Assembly (NCBI RefSeq): GCF_030246925.1
Contig: NZ_CP126740.1
Span: 992,001-1,056,000, forward strand
Length of the DNA: 64,000 bases
Origin: Microbacterium sp. zg-Y625
GTDB taxonomy: Bacteria > Actinomycetota > Actinomycetes > Actinomycetales > Microbacteriaceae
Direction of reading: 5' to 3'
The translations under genes were made by a program, and so were the position numbers. The stretch's first letter is position 1, and every line of letters starts with the position of its first letter. Under the pieces are notes generated by a model. The model did no database searches. It saw only the letters and a list, made by a program, of their open reading frames with translations, and had not been told where the DNA came from. Below are positions 27,893-41,402 of this stretch, piece after piece.

Positions 27893-28661
27893 CGACCACT
27901 GCGGCAACTCCGGCGATTCAGCCGGCGTGCCGTGGGAGGGGCGCGCCTTCCAGGCGAACCCGCACGCCGGCGATGACGGCTCGGCCGATCCGGCGCTGCT
28001 GGCGGCGCTGACGGCGTTCCGCGCGGGGGAGGGCGACCAGGTCGCCGTCGTCGATGCCTACCGCAGCGCGCGCCTGCTGATCCCCCTCGTCGCCGAGAAG
28101 GGCGACGAGGGCGTGGGGCCGACGGGCCTGGCCGTGGACAAGACGCAGGAGCTCTCGATCGTGACGGTCGCGGCGCCCGACGGCCGCCGCGTGCTGCCGG
28201 TGTTCACATCGGTCACCACGATGCAGCGGTGGGATGCCACGGCGCGTCCGGTCCCGGCTGACGGCGTGCGCACGGCGCTGGCCGCGGCGAACGACGACAC
28301 CGACCTCATCGTCATCGACCCGACGTCGGAGACGGAGTTCGTGCTGCGCCGGCCCGCGGTGTGGGCCATCGGCCAGGGGCGTCCGTGGGAGCCGAGCTAC
28401 GCGTCGCCGGAGGTCTACCGCGGCCTGCAGGAGAGCATCGGCGGGGAACTCGCCGTGCTCGACCTGTCGGTGGCGCCCGGGGACCCCGAGGCACGCCTGC
28501 GGGGGCCGGAGCTGGTGGTGCGGCTGCAGCTGATCGCGGGTCTCGAGCAGTCCGAGCTCGATGCCGTGCTGCAGCGCCTCGCCGCGCGCTGGGCCGCCGA
28601 CGACAGGGTCGCGGTGCTGGTGGATTCGCTGACCGTGAAGCTCCTCCGCGCCGCCGAGTGA
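27876..28661 (+). CDS. SseB family protein
   Basis: 261 residues from ATG 27876, overlapping priA by 17 bp. The SseB N-terminal domain is visible as [42 protein letters not shown] and [23 protein letters not shown]. Cytosolic, function unknown; in actinobacteria the gene commonly sits between hisA/priA and infC. The last codon and stop (GAG TGA, 28656-28661) belong to the first unit of an intergenic repeat array, so the C terminus ...RAAE was fixed by that repeat. Confidence 0.85.
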
Positions 28662-28765
28662 GTATTCGCGTCGCCGAGTGAGTATTCACCGCGCCGAGTG
28701 AGTATTCACCTCGAATACTCACTCGCGCCCTCGAGTACTCACTCGCGAACGCGAATACTCACTCG
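28655..28765. repeat. Array 1 of the 20-bp-period repeat: three copies each way
   Basis: Core GAGTGAGTATTC at 28656, 28676 and 28696 (plus sense), then its reverse complement at 28713, 28733 (one mismatch) and 28753. Units are exactly 20 bp apart on each side. The central two copies form a perfect 13-bp hairpin (28695-28707 with 28713-28725, loop ACCTC). It lies between convergent sseB and the DUF1844 gene; each gene is followed by copies in its own direction. Confidence 0.95.
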
Positions 28766-28772
28766 CGAGCGG

Positions 28773-29192
28773 TCAGGTGACCGGGCCGGTCAGCTTCTCG
28801 CCGGGGCCCTTGCCGATCGGGTCGGGGACCACCGAAGCCTCGCGGAACGCCAGCTGCAGGGAACGCAGGCCGTCGCGCAGCGACCGGGCGTGCATGTCGC
28901 TGATCTCGGGGGCGCCGGCGGTGATGAGTCCCGCCAGCGCGTTGATGAGCTTGCGCGCCTCATCGAGGTCCTGCTGCGTCGTGGGATCGTCGGCGAGCCC
29001 GACCTTGACCGCCGCCGCGCTCATGAGGTGCACCGCCGTGGTGGTGATCACCTCGACCGCCGGCACGTCGGCGATGTCGCGGGTGGCGGCGTTCGCCGCC
29101 CGGTCCTGCTCCTCCCAGCGGGCTTGCGTCTCGGCATCCGGGGCACTTCCGTGCGCCGTCAGATCGTCCTGCCCATCGGGAATAGTGTTCAC
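28773..29192 (-). CDS. DUF1844 protein
   Basis: 139 residues from GTG 29192. The family core is clear: ATRDIADVPAVEVITTTAVHLMSAAAVKVGLADDP, followed by DLDEARKLINALAGLITAGAPEI and a helix ending in LRDGLRSLQLAFREASVV. Function unknown. It is regularly found divergent from infC in actinobacteria, as here. The long N-terminal extension available in the same frame (to 29297) is rejected because it runs through the infC promoter and lacks family similarity. A poor -10 (TAGCAG) is about ten bases upstream. Confidence 0.82.
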   Translation of the reverse strand: MNTIPDGQDDLTAHGSAPDAETQARWEEQDRAANAATRDIADVPAVEVITTTAVHLMSAAAVKVGLADDPTTQQDLDEARKLINALAGLITAGAPEISDMHARSLRDGLRSLQLAFREASVVPDPIGKGPGEKLTGPVT

Positions 29193-29206
29193 ATCGCACT
29201 TTCTGC

Positions 29207-29452
29207 TAGACTTTCGCGGGCACCGGGGGTTTCTGCTCCCGGATCGAAAGAGGATCACATCCCACCCGCGCTTGCCGCTCCAGGCTACCGGGTCCACGCG
29301 CTCCGCTCCGTCTCGTACGGGGTAGTCAGGGTGCAGAAGCCGGCGCAGGTGCGCTGTGCGGGTGGAACGTGCGAATCTTCCGCCCGCGAGGGACCGCTGT
29401 AAGCGGATCGTCGCGGTGGCCGAACCTATTCGCTACGTAAGAGGAGTCCCGC
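29207..29452 (+). promoter_or_regulatory. infC promoter and long leader
   Basis: TAGACT at 29207-29212 is the likely -10, which gives a leader of about 235 nt before infC. Leaders of infC-rpmI-rplT operons are often regulatory (L20 or translation-level feedback). I did not identify a specific fold. Ribosome-binding sequence GAGGAG at 29441-29446. Confidence 0.5.
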
Positions 29453-30139
29453 ATCAGCGATCCCCGCACCAACGACCGCATCCGCGTCCCCGAGGTCCGC
29501 CTCGTCGGACCCGCGGGTGAGCAGGTCGGCGTCGTCCGCATCGAGGTGGCGCTGCGCCTGGCCCAGGAGGCCGAACTCGACCTGGTCGAGGTGGCCCCGA
29601 ACTCGAAGCCCCCCGTGGTCAAGATCATGGACTACGGCAAGTTCAAGTACGAGGCGGCGCAGAAAGCCAAGGAAGCGCGACGCAATCAGGCGAACACGGT
29701 CCTCAAGGAGGTCCGTTTCCGGCTGAAGATCGAGGCGCACGACTACATAACCAAGCTCAAGCGCGCCGAGGGCTTCCTCCAGGCCGGTGACAAGGTGAAG
29801 GCCATGATCCTCTTCCGCGGGCGCGAGCAGTCGCGTCCCGAACAGGGTGTGCGACTGCTTCGCAAGTTCGCCGAGGACGTGGCGGAGTACGGCACGGTGG
29901 AGTCCAGCCCCACCATCGACGGCCGCAACATGGTCATGGTCGTCGCGCCGCACAAGAACAAGTCCGAGGTGAAGACCGAGCAGAACGCCCAGCGCGCAGC
30001 CAACAAGGAGGCGGCGCGTAGCGCGCGCTCCGGCGGTGAGCACAACGAGCACGATGACGCCGAGCACGGCGACGCCGAGCACAGTGACGCCGAGCAGGCT
30101 GACGCCGTGCAGCCCCAGGGCGACCAGACGGCCGAGTAG
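29453..30139 (+). CDS. infC: Translation initiation factor IF-3, ATC start
   Basis: Prevents 50S joining and proofreads the start codon. 228 residues if it begins at ATC 29453, six bases after GAGGAG. The reading [20 protein letters not shown] is the conserved IF3 N terminus, and no ATG/GTG/TTG occurs in frame before the GTG at 29546, which would delete about 31 conserved residues. Non-AUG starts are the known autoregulatory device of infC: IF3 discriminates against its own start codon. The N domain, the lysine-rich linker near 60-80 and the C domain are complete. A hydrophilic tail ([20 protein letters not shown]) extends past the usual end. Confidence 0.93.
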
Positions 30140-30209
30140 GCCCCACAGACCCCCGCATCGCGGGATACCGACTCCCGCCTGCGCGGGACCAGCAACGAAG
30201 GAAGAAGAG

Positions 30210-40172: not shown

Positions 40173-40206
40173 GCCTCGATCCTGGCAGGCCCCTCCGACG
40201 CGCTCG

Positions 40207-40280
40207 CGAGTGAGTATTCCCGTCTGCGAGTGAGTATTCGCGCTGTCGAGTGAGTATTCGTCGCCGCGAATGAGTATCCA
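40207..40280 (+). repeat. Array 3 of the 20-bp-period repeat: four copies
   Basis: GAGTGAGTATTC at 40208, 40228 and 40248, and a degenerate GAATGAGTATCC at 40268. All in plus orientation, between divergent genes and therefore upstream of both. The 20-bp spacing is kept even for the degenerate unit. Confidence 0.93.
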
Positions 40281-40307
40281 TCCGTCGCGCTGCGGTCCCG
40301 CCTCTGG

Positions 40308-40313
40308 TGGAAT
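40308..40313 (+). promoter_or_regulatory. Possible -10 TGGAAT for the epimerase gene
   Basis: Six bases before ATG 40320, the same geometry as other leaderless genes here, but the second base departs from TANNNT. Confidence 0.3.
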
Positions 40314-40319
40314 CGACGC

Positions 40320-41297
40320 ATGACCGACGTGCTGATCCTCGGCGGGACCGGATGGCTGGGCGCGCGCATCGCGGAGCGTTGGCTCGACCGCGGCGCCCGC
40401 GTGACGTGCCTTGCCCGTGGGACGAGCCCGGCACCGGAGGGAGCGCGTCTCATCGCCGGCGACCGCGCGGCGGACGGCGCATATGACGCCGTCGCGCCCA
40501 TGGAGTGGGACGAGATCGTGGACGTGTCGTCGGATGCCGCCCACGTGGCATCCGCCGTCGGGGCCCTCGCCACGCAGACCCGACACTGGACGTTCGTCTC
40601 GAGCATCTCGGTGTACGCCGACGCGGATGCCGCCGGGGCGGACGAATCGGCACCGGTGGTGGCGCCGCTGGAACCCGGGCGAGAAAGCGACTATCCGCAC
40701 GAGAAGGCCGCCGCGGAAGAGGCGGTCCGGGCGGCTCTCGGCCATCGCGCGGCGATCGTTCGTCCCGGGCTGATCGCCGGACCGGGTGATGGGTCGGACC
40801 GATTCGGCTATTGGGTCGCGCGCTTCGCGCTTGCCGGCCGAGAGTCGGTGCTTGTGCCGCCGACCGACGGGCGCGGGGTGTCGGTGATCGACGTGGACGA
40901 CCTGGCCGACTTCATCACCGCCATCGGCGAGGCGCCGTGGACCGGGGTGGTCAACGCCGTGGGTGACCCGCATCCGCTCGCGGACGTGCTCGCGCAGGCG
41001 CGGGAGGTGGCCGGGCACACGGGTCCGATGGTGGATGCCGCGGAGGAGTGGCTGCTCGACCACGGCGTGTCGTACTGGTCGGGTCCGCGGTCTCTTCCGC
41101 TGTGGCTGCCGCGCGGGATGCCGGGCATGTGGTCTCGCTCGCACGCGGCGTACACGATCCTCGGTGGGCGGCTGCGCCCGCTGCGCGCGACGCTCGAGCG
41201 GACCCTCGCCGCGGAGCGGCGCTCCGGCCTCGACCGGGACCGGCGCTCCGGCCTGAGCCGCCGGGAGGAGCTCGCCCTGCTCGCCGCCCTCGGCTGA
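40320..41297 (+). CDS. NAD-dependent epimerase/dehydratase family protein
   Basis: 325 residues, extended-SDR fold. N-terminal LILGGTGWLGARIAERWLDRG (Rossmann), a serine-rich strand TFVSSISVYAD, and Tyr-x3-Lys in DYPHEKAAAEEAV. It resembles the group annotated as NAD-dependent epimerase or isoflavone-reductase-like; the substrate is unknown. The C terminus repeats RRSGLDRD/RRSGLSRR before a final hydrophobic helix. Bordered by arrays 3 and 4. Not obviously linked in function to the neighbouring ATPase. Confidence 0.83.
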   Translation: MTDVLILGGTGWLGARIAERWLDRGARVTCLARGTSPAPEGARLIAGDRAADGAYDAVAPMEWDEIVDVSSDAAHVASAVGALATQTRHWTFVSSISVYADADAAGADESAPVVAPLEPGRESDYPHEKAAAEEAVRAALGHRAAIVRPGLIAGPGDGSDRFGYWVARFALAGRESVLVPPTDGRGVSVIDVDDLADFITAIGEAPWTGVVNAVGDPHPLADVLAQAREVAGHTGPMVDAAEEWLLDHGVSYWSGPRSLPLWLPRGMPGMWSRSHAAYTILGGRLRPLRATLERTLAAERRSGLDRDRRSGLSRREELALLAALG

Positions 41298-41308
41298 GCT
41301 CCGCCGCG

Positions 41309-41402
41309 CGAATACTCACTCGAGCCGACGAATACTCACTCGGCACCGCGAATACTCACTCGACGCGGCGAATACTCACTCGGCACCGCGAATACTCACT
41401 CG
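41309..41402 (-). repeat. Array 4 of the 20-bp-period repeat: five inverted copies
   Basis: GAATACTCACTC (the reverse complement of the core) at 41310, 41330, 41350, 41370 and 41390, all perfect, starting 13 bp after the epimerase stop. The rest of the 322-bp gap (41403-41607) before argC shows no gene, hairpin or known operator that I could recognise. Confidence 0.95.

Follow-up and report, generated by a model that had tools for sequence, protein, structure and literature searches.

Recurrent short words in genomes take several described forms. DNA uptake sequences of Neisseria and the Pasteurellaceae are short, clade-specific words in many copies, mostly scattered singly over the genome and also found in genes. 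In CRISPR arrays, repeats of ~20–50 bp alternate with unique spacers of about the same size derived from foreign DNA; hairpin-cluster terminators are of mixed sequence, and tandem terminator boxes exist in the ribosomal DNA of eukaryotes. REP, BIME and REPIN elements of Enterobacteria and Pseudomonas combine a short conserved word, high copy number, intergenic position and restriction to a lineage, often with foldable inverted pairs; passages of PMC3116915 tie REP and REPIN elements to RAYT transposases and inverted doublets. Hairpin-cluster terminators are described in a section of PMC8355165 as small hairpins within tens of bases downstream of the stop codon, with no U-tract, and part of a review (PMC10310618) covers roadblock termination, in which RNA polymerase is stopped by DNA-bound proteins. 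Here, we describe tandem arrays of a 14-bp intergenic element in Microbacterium sp. zg-Y625, first seen in a stretch of 64,000 nucleotides (G000:C1:992001-1056000, hereafter the window) of its genome (G000; one contig, 3,259,775 bases). The arrays form a clade-specific short-repeat family with an unusual phased, directional anatomy. They were compared with those of four array-bearing Microbacterium relatives (G281, G283, G168 and G379), with G208 as the outgroup.

A sequence-only reading of the window had reported 19 units in four arrays, 16 of them perfect, at a constant distance of 20 bp. The core GAGTGAGTATTC, with two mismatches or fewer, has 20 matches in the window, as compared with a mean of 1.75 and a maximum of 6 in shuffles. 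Nineteen of these matches are the reported units, at the same coordinates (16 exact, two with one mismatch and one with two), and the remaining match (53872, two mismatches) is isolated. The distance is 20 bp throughout every same-strand block of the window, and the inward junction at 28696/28713 measures 17 bp start to start. The observation is confirmed, on a far larger scale than first reported. The exact core occurs 281 times in the G000 genome (144 forward, 137 reverse) and 0 times with the reversed pattern; this control and the window shuffles reject a chance origin. With near copies included, there are 358 units in 73 clusters, which make up 95 same-strand runs of 2–9 units each. Exact units account for 281/358 (78%) in G000 and 180/223 (81%) in G281. 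Same-strand spacing within G000 clusters is 20 bp in 257 of 263 cases, the six others being 19 (three times), 26, 33 and 40 bp. The sequence-only reading had set a genome-wide search for cores scattered without this spacing as the test of its claim, and the claim stands.

Each unit comprises C-GAGTGAGTATTC-G followed by six free letters, and the 14-mer is an imperfect palindrome, CGAGT-GAGT-ATTCG. In G000, core positions carry 1.46–2.0 bits of information; the weakest is position 10 (88% T, 12% C), and the loop letters GAGT (positions 5–8) are conserved equally to the remaining core. The commonest core variant, T10 to C, is present in 44 units and is carried by the first unit only once in 33 cases. 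The letters between units had been thought to vary freely. Counted from the 12-mer as 8-bp fillers, they end in C in 98% and begin with G in 93% of G000 cases, so the free part is N6. Fillers are also more alike within an array (6.07/8) than between arrays (4.61/8), and many are common to several arrays. With runs of the five genomes pooled, N6 consists of G, C and T, is rich in G and C, and holds only 3% A on the GAGT strand; the flanks hold 13–16%. On the 5' side of the first unit, the flank approximates CGCYSCC; on the 3' side of the last, it is similar to the beginning of a filler. Beyond ~7 bp, the flanks share little (14 bp profiled per side), with one C-rich position at -12 in G281.

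No description of such arrays was found in a collection of open-access papers, searched with the core letters, with Microbacterium and intergenic 20-bp tandem repeats, and with Microbacterium and the core letters, in agreement with the earlier statement that no known repeat family has these features. Literature matches to the core letters concern only human cells and influenza, as judged from titles and abstracts. Like REP and REPIN elements, the arrays are intergenic, present in many copies and confined to a lineage. Whereas REP and REPIN elements are built on inverted doublets, the arrays are tandem rows with a 20-bp period and only a 5-bp imperfect palindrome; they face inward when mixed and decay along their length. 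Their unit is not a fixed-distance inverted doublet, since most clusters have one orientation (51 of 73), and the five array genomes give no match to the Y1 transposase. In a passage of PMC2267715, DNA uptake words share the size of the core, and closely spaced complementary copies form terminator pairs. The arrays differ from DNA uptake sequences in that they hardly ever lie in genes and form rows of 2–9 phased units anchored at stop codons. In contrast to CRISPR arrays, they have 8-bp fillers that are alike within an array and in many cases shared between arrays; cas genes were not searched. Unit number varies and fillers are largely locus-specific, which would suit minisatellites, or variable number tandem repeats, but a single core is shared over 73 loci, unlike in a plain repeat of that type.

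The fixed distance amid variable filler had been taken to mean that the spacing is selected or is copied by a mechanism that measures length. Adjacent G000 fillers, drawn from runs chained at exactly 20 bp, carry 278 substitutions in 157 pairs, as compared with six of 263 spacings off 20 bp, whereas 74 intergenic gaps without arrays, aligned for G000 and G283, hold 876 substitutions and 124 insertion-deletion events (Fisher p = 1e-8). Filler length thus looks to be held beyond the neutral rate and the spacing to be constrained. Simple copying accounts for some of this regularity: 29% of first pairs and 35% of last pairs consist of two identical neighboring fillers (G000 arrays with at least two fillers, n = 84), which indicates that units multiply via local 20-bp duplication.

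The arrays have a 5'-to-3' polarity. Counted from the 5' end in G000 arrays with at least three units, the fraction of non-exact cores rises from 0.06 through 0.14, 0.23, 0.36 and 0.45 to 0.50 at the sixth unit (n = 84, 84, 84, 45, 20 and 6), and the first and last units differ at p = 1e-6. In-phase remnants with five mismatches or fewer lie past the 3' end in 14% of cases, as compared with 4% out of phase; past the 5' end, both values are 1%. When genomes are pooled, the gradient is present in arrays at gene ends (0.13 non-exact in first units versus 0.38 in last units, p = 1e-5, 127 arrays) and in arrays that face a gene start (0.09 versus 0.28, p = 0.014, 58 arrays). Between G000 and G283, the 8-bp flank is kept (at least 7/8) before the array at 28 of 47 loci and after the array at 12 of 47. 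A CRISPR-like growth only at the 5' end is unsupported: single G283 fillers match the first G000 filler at 5.33/8 and the last at 5.89/8 (18 pairs).

Placement relative to genes was assessed with gene calls from our own codon-usage script rather than a standard annotator. None of the 95 G000 runs lies wholly inside called genes, and 2 of 62 do in G281; G000 cluster 567401 partly overlaps a called gene, and two exact G000 cores count as lying in genes. The earlier remark that the core is not found inside genes is therefore largely right, with the qualification that the first unit often holds the last codon and stop of a gene, as it does for pheT and an SseB-like gene in the window. This GAG-TGA end lies inside the first unit in 27 of 95 G000 runs. 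The 5' side of a run abuts the 3' end of a co-oriented gene in 66/95 runs of G000, 44/62 of G281 and 46/62 of G283. Moreover, 56 of the 95 G000 runs start within 30 bp of, or inside, a co-oriented stop codon, as compared with 12 that have an opposing gene end within 30 bp on the 3' side (p = 2e-11). Single-orientation clusters account for 51 of 73 in G000, and mixed clusters face inward (22 in G000, 11 in G281, 14 in G283 and one in G168, 48 in total), with 0 outward junctions. The inward start-to-start distance is 17 in 13 of the 22 mixed G000 clusters and scattered in G281. Orientation set by the direction of replication was rejected (54 of 95 G000 runs co-directional, p = 0.22); orientation follows the neighboring gene. 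Gene-end anchoring, inward-only orientation and the decay gradient, all of which go beyond the sequence-only reading, are the most informative features of the family. At two G000 loci, G000:C1:3056655 (L115) and 139704 (L118), arrays have taken the place of gene ends: the matching G281 genes close with Leu-stop and Ala-stop ahead of their array, and in G000 the first unit gives the last Glu codon and TGA.

The search of the whole genome and of other Microbacteriaceae that had been proposed with the first observation places the family in a narrow group. Core pairs are present in 5 of 366 Microbacterium genomes. The word GAGTGAGTAYTC occurs 316 times in G000, 235 in G281, 115 in G283, 37 in G168 and 4 in G379, and 0 times in the seven other genomes counted. 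These five genomes are the five closest by PheT protein (100, 97, 94, 93 and 92%; next 87%), and a 20-row pheT tree unites them in a single clade (support 100/100), with G000 and G283 as sisters; the 15 outside rows were selected from those fetched, and the order of G281, G168 and G379 is not resolved. The exact core was absent from 37 relatives (22 of the same genus, 15 of other families). The looser pattern GAGTGAG-N13-GAGTGAG, for which the reversed control is void because the pattern is identical when reversed, gave matches in 18 of 398 family genomes from 85 genera, 17 of them with stray matches only (1–5), as compared with 248 in G000; where there are five matches, these are a GAGT microsatellite. 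A core-N8-core scan of genome contigs returned only Microbacterium pullorum Sa4CUA7 (G168), in a collection from which the window's genome and its near kin are possibly absent. A search for other array families in 16 stretches of 10 Microbacterium species and one earlier stretch of one of these species (~338 kb) gave four tandem matches, at lags of 13, 29, 30 and 39, and none at lag 20.

Comparison between species shows that fillers turn over while cores stay mostly exact. Both flanks of the 73 G000 clusters were located for 48 in G283, 35 in G281, 18 in G168, 15 in G379 and three in G208, with the sequence of G281, G168 and G379 collected in part. At least one near-exact unit is present at 39/48, 29/35, 7/18, 2/15 and 0/3 of these flank-matched loci, respectively, fractions that are biased upward because the relatives' stretches were picked largely for carrying arrays. 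Where both G000 and G281 carry arrays, G168 retains two or more near-exact units at 4 of 10 loci and G379 at 1 of 8, and some of the other loci hold decayed units, such as GAGTGGGCATTC and GGATGCTCACTC in G168. First fillers of loci shared by G000 and G281 score 4.65/8 when matched and 4.56/8 when unmatched, and best matches score 5.28 versus 5.01 (permutation p = 0.036). Fillers of G000 and G283 are still recognizably related (best match 6.32 versus 5.14). In G283, the inward arrays of clusters 28 and 43 (L166, L226) are collapsed to fused near-palindromes, GAGTGAATACTCACTC and GAGTGAGTACTCACTC, and GAGTGAGTACTCACTC contains the Escherichia coli SlmA site GTGAGTACTCAC.

Array length also differs between species. 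Over pairs with a recognizable unit in both genomes, the G000 array exceeds its G283 match in length in 45 of 51 cases, equals it in five and is shorter in one (means 3.69 versus 1.88; sign test p = 1e-12). The comparison of G000 with G281 shows no bias (16 longer, 12 shorter, 10 equal). A shift at nearly all loci at once would follow from a trans-acting factor or from altered repeat stability across the genome, and we take these data to suggest the former. Cluster 57, which is present in G000 and G283 and absent from G281, G168 and G379, is likely a gain in the G000/G283 ancestor. Array-less relatives carry a native GAG-stop at the place of the array start at pheT (G379 and G168), cluster 18 (G379) and cluster 34 (G283).

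These features are best explained, in our tentative and less than even judgment, by arrays that are helically phased rows of sites for one sequence-specific DNA-binding protein of this Microbacterium clade, acting as a directional boundary. The reading builds on the conserved sites, the constrained spacing, the anchoring at gene ends, the polarity and the restriction to one clade. We infer that a protein rather than RNA is the reader, what kind of protein it is, and that it acts as a roadblock. The earlier suggestion that proteins could bind all units on one face, two helical turns apart, agrees with a conserved core amid filler turnover, the pattern expected of protein sites at this distance; the binding itself is part of the proposal. 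The putative protein would bind each 14-mer, C-GAGTGAGTATTC-G, and because 20 bp is approximately two turns, neighboring molecules would lie on nearly one face and could cooperate. The rows would occupy transcription-unit boundaries, in most cases immediately after a stop codon and directed away from the gene, and a bound row would block RNA polymerase leaving the gene. Rows upstream of promoters, with the same outward direction, could halt antisense transcription from the promoter, and the rows of two convergent genes would face each other. New units may arise by 20-bp tandem duplication, with selection keeping the core letters and the spacing, best in the unit that is met first. Tandem directional protein sites just 3' of a gene, as protein roadblock termination would use, would give the anatomy of these arrays, with the protein presumed in this case. 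To our knowledge, no genome-wide phased roadblock system has been described in bacteria. In a broader form that we consider possible but doubtful, the arrays would be a gene-boundary system in which one clade-specific protein on phased directional rows forms a polar terminator or insulator and row length is set in trans; where the protein was lost or changed (G379, G168 and partly G283), the rows would shrink and decay together.

Several observations weigh against a directional protein boundary. A gene start, rather than a gene end, lies on the 5' side of 29 of the 95 G000 runs, at a median distance of 67 bp, which means that a function at gene ends is not the whole story. A terminator-like hairpin of 17 pairs with a T-containing tail (window 33633-33670) follows directly on the gene that ends at 33629, so gene ends in this region need not rely on arrays. 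In G281, the decay gradient is less pronounced (0.16 versus 0.33, p = 0.10), and its 12 start-facing arrays lack it (0.17 versus 0.08). All arrays share one core, and the per-array tests are therefore not independent of each other, nor do they count as independent tests of the core. Altered repeat stability could also produce the genome-wide length differences, repeated independent insertion at the same gene ends may conceivably underlie the shared loci, and restriction to 5 of 366 genomes would suit a system that is young or dispensable. No candidate for the binding protein emerged, and the gene contents of long- and short-array species were not compared.

The arrays could instead be a selfish or neutral REP-like interspersed repeat, spread by some enzyme and tolerated between genes, with the polarity coming from the insertion process. 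We regard this as unlikely. It would account for a copy number that varies widely between close species (316, 235, 115, 37 and 4 copies of GAGTGAGTAYTC), for the likely gain at cluster 57, for the native GAG-stop at the array start in array-less relatives, seen at a few loci, and for a local density of 14 clusters per 50 kb where 1.1 are expected. However, neither of the copying enzymes searched for was found. The Y1/RAYT transposase (PF01797) was matched in 0 of 8 genomes, including the five with arrays, with 5 of 14 controls positive, other transposase families not being searched, and the RVT_1 reverse transcriptase (PF00078) in 0 of the same number, again including the five, with 3 of 14 controls positive. 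Selfish arrays lacking both would leave another copying process to be sought. Nor was there any match for the core pair in viral contigs or for array 4 of the window in phages and plasmids. Neutral remnants would not hold their cores exact while fillers turn over, and the flanks share little beyond ~7 bp.

A further reading, which we consider quite unlikely, is that the arrays act as RNA, as transcribed hairpin clusters in 3' untranslated regions with a role in transcription termination or in the protection of mRNA ends. The core would fold as CGAGU-GAGU-AUUCG, and inward-facing arrays would form one long hairpin. The sense orientation of the arrays at gene ends is consistent with this proposal, as is the report, in a part of PMC8355165, that hairpin clusters lacking a U-tract near stop codons are common terminators, more so in GC-rich genomes. 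The T10 to C change (44 units, G000) turns a G-U pair into a G-C pair. Against dinucleotide shuffles, the mean fold z in G000 is -3.8 for sense and -1.5 for antisense strands; array 1 folds at -85 kcal/mol (z -14.6), and only the sense strand of array 4 folds well (z -6.3 versus -0.5 for antisense). With a control that permutes unit columns and keeps the tandem repetition, however, the sense z is reduced to -1.45 in G000 and -1.15 in G281, and for the pheT array the antisense strand (z -4.5) is no worse than the sense strand (z -3.7). Covariation does not extend the hairpin into the fillers (714 pooled junctions, z -1.3 to 1.8; top subset z 2.0, in G281), and fillers as selected RNA pairing are accordingly unsupported. 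A hairpin does not require an exact 20-bp period, the four loop letters match the stem in conservation, and 51 of 73 clusters have a single orientation. The arrays resemble hairpin-cluster terminators in their position and in having no U-tract but differ from them in consisting of one invariant word at fixed spacing, with a loop conserved like the stem and no compensatory change in the fillers. Selection on RNA hairpins is thus poorly supported. In window 28000-42000, a search for hairpins followed by T-runs gave three sites (shuffles 3.7), none of them at the four arrays, and a search of 28500-41700 against Rfam gave only a chance microRNA-like match at array 1 (26 bits versus a gathering score of 100).

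The chromosomal distribution of the clusters bears on sites for a chromosome-organizing protein (nucleoid occlusion, condensation or segregation) that are intergenic only because space is free there. The G000 contig opens with genes that by eye look like dnaA, dnaN, recF and gyrB. From origin to terminus, the quarters of G000 hold 32, 16, 16 and 9 clusters (Kolmogorov–Smirnov p = 0.0003), and those of G283 hold 24, 9, 10 and 6 (p = 0.0009, with the dense block kept in the test). When the dense block at 3.05-3.105 Mb is removed from G000, the counts become 17, 16, 16 and 9 (p = 0.17). Nucleoid occlusion sites of the SlmA type are depleted around the terminus, and in G000 such a bias is significant only if the block is included. 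A register of the core, GTGAGTATTCGC, aligned by eye, agrees at 10 of 12 letters with the SlmA site of E. coli, GTGAGTACTCAC, given in a section of PMC3116907. In spite of these likenesses, such a role is improbable, since the G000 bias does not survive removal of the block, orientation is tied to the neighboring gene and not to replication, SlmA sites are single 12-bp palindromes rather than rows, in another host lineage and numbering 50 in E. coli K-12 according to the same section of PMC3116907, and a core function would be unexpected in only 5 of 366 species.

The dense block itself (G000:C1:3053498-3103685; L115, L136, L137) contains up to 14 clusters per 50 kb, and the largest value in 5000 simulations is 9. 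The regions matching it hold 22 of the 37 GAGTGAGTAYTC words of G168 and all four of those of G379. It ends beside genes that by eye look like dnaK and dnaJ and a MerR-family gene; HspR half-sites are GAGT/ACTC. Four genes of the block were compared with Pfam: three are helix-turn-helix regulators (MerR, HxlR and TetR) and one has no match, and nothing links any of them to the arrays. A 331-aa gene with no Pfam match (L137:1277-2272) has a 3-unit array on one side and, on the other, the nine-unit array at G000:C1:3090375, which is the longest in the genome.

In the window, arrays 1a and 1b face each other, 17 bp start to start. Array 1a (28656..28707, forward strand) has three exact units at 20 bp, and its first unit contains the GAG-TGA end of a gene with an SseB N-terminal domain (PF07179; 27876..28661, forward strand; stop at 28659-28661). 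Array 1b (28713..28764, reverse strand) has three units, one of them GAGTGAGTACTC, and the stop of a DUF1844 gene (28773..29192, reverse strand) is 8 bp away. Array 2 (38863..38934, forward strand) has four units, one of them AAGTGAGTATTC, and its first unit contains the GAG-TGA end of pheT, which encodes the phenylalanyl-tRNA synthetase beta chain (36358..38868, forward strand; stop at 38866-38868). Array 3 (40208..40279, forward strand), with four units of which the last is GAATGAGTATCC, lies between two divergent genes, an AAA_21 ATPase gene with its start side towards the array (39048..40172, reverse strand) and a gene for an NAD-dependent epimerase-like protein (40320..41297, forward strand), which occupies the interval between arrays 3 and 4. 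Array 4 (41310..41401, reverse strand) has five exact units and opposes both of its neighbors, lying 3' of the epimerase-like gene and 5' of an argC-like semialdehyde dehydrogenase gene (41620..42687, forward strand). Directly 3' of the pheT array, window 38978-39020 holds an imperfect inverted repeat, TGGCGGCCGAGACA ... TGTCTTGGCCGCCA, which the repeat finder missed at its settings and which the matching place in G283 does not have; one half of it recurs in L101 (8791-8804). In the outgroup G208 (L148), the gap matching window 28662-28772, the place of array 1, holds by eye a different inverted repeat, ATGTCCCACTTTC ... GAAAGTGGGACAT.

If the arrays are selfish, they would still represent a short-repeat family with phase and direction, in genomes that gave no match to the RAYT and reverse-transcriptase machinery. 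If they are instead phased rows of protein sites acting as directional boundaries, bacteria would mark gene ends with such rows in place of RNA hairpins and U-tracts, and a system of this kind would be seen kept, shortened and lost across five close species. A natural experiment would then be at hand in corresponding gene ends that bear long, short or decayed arrays, or none.

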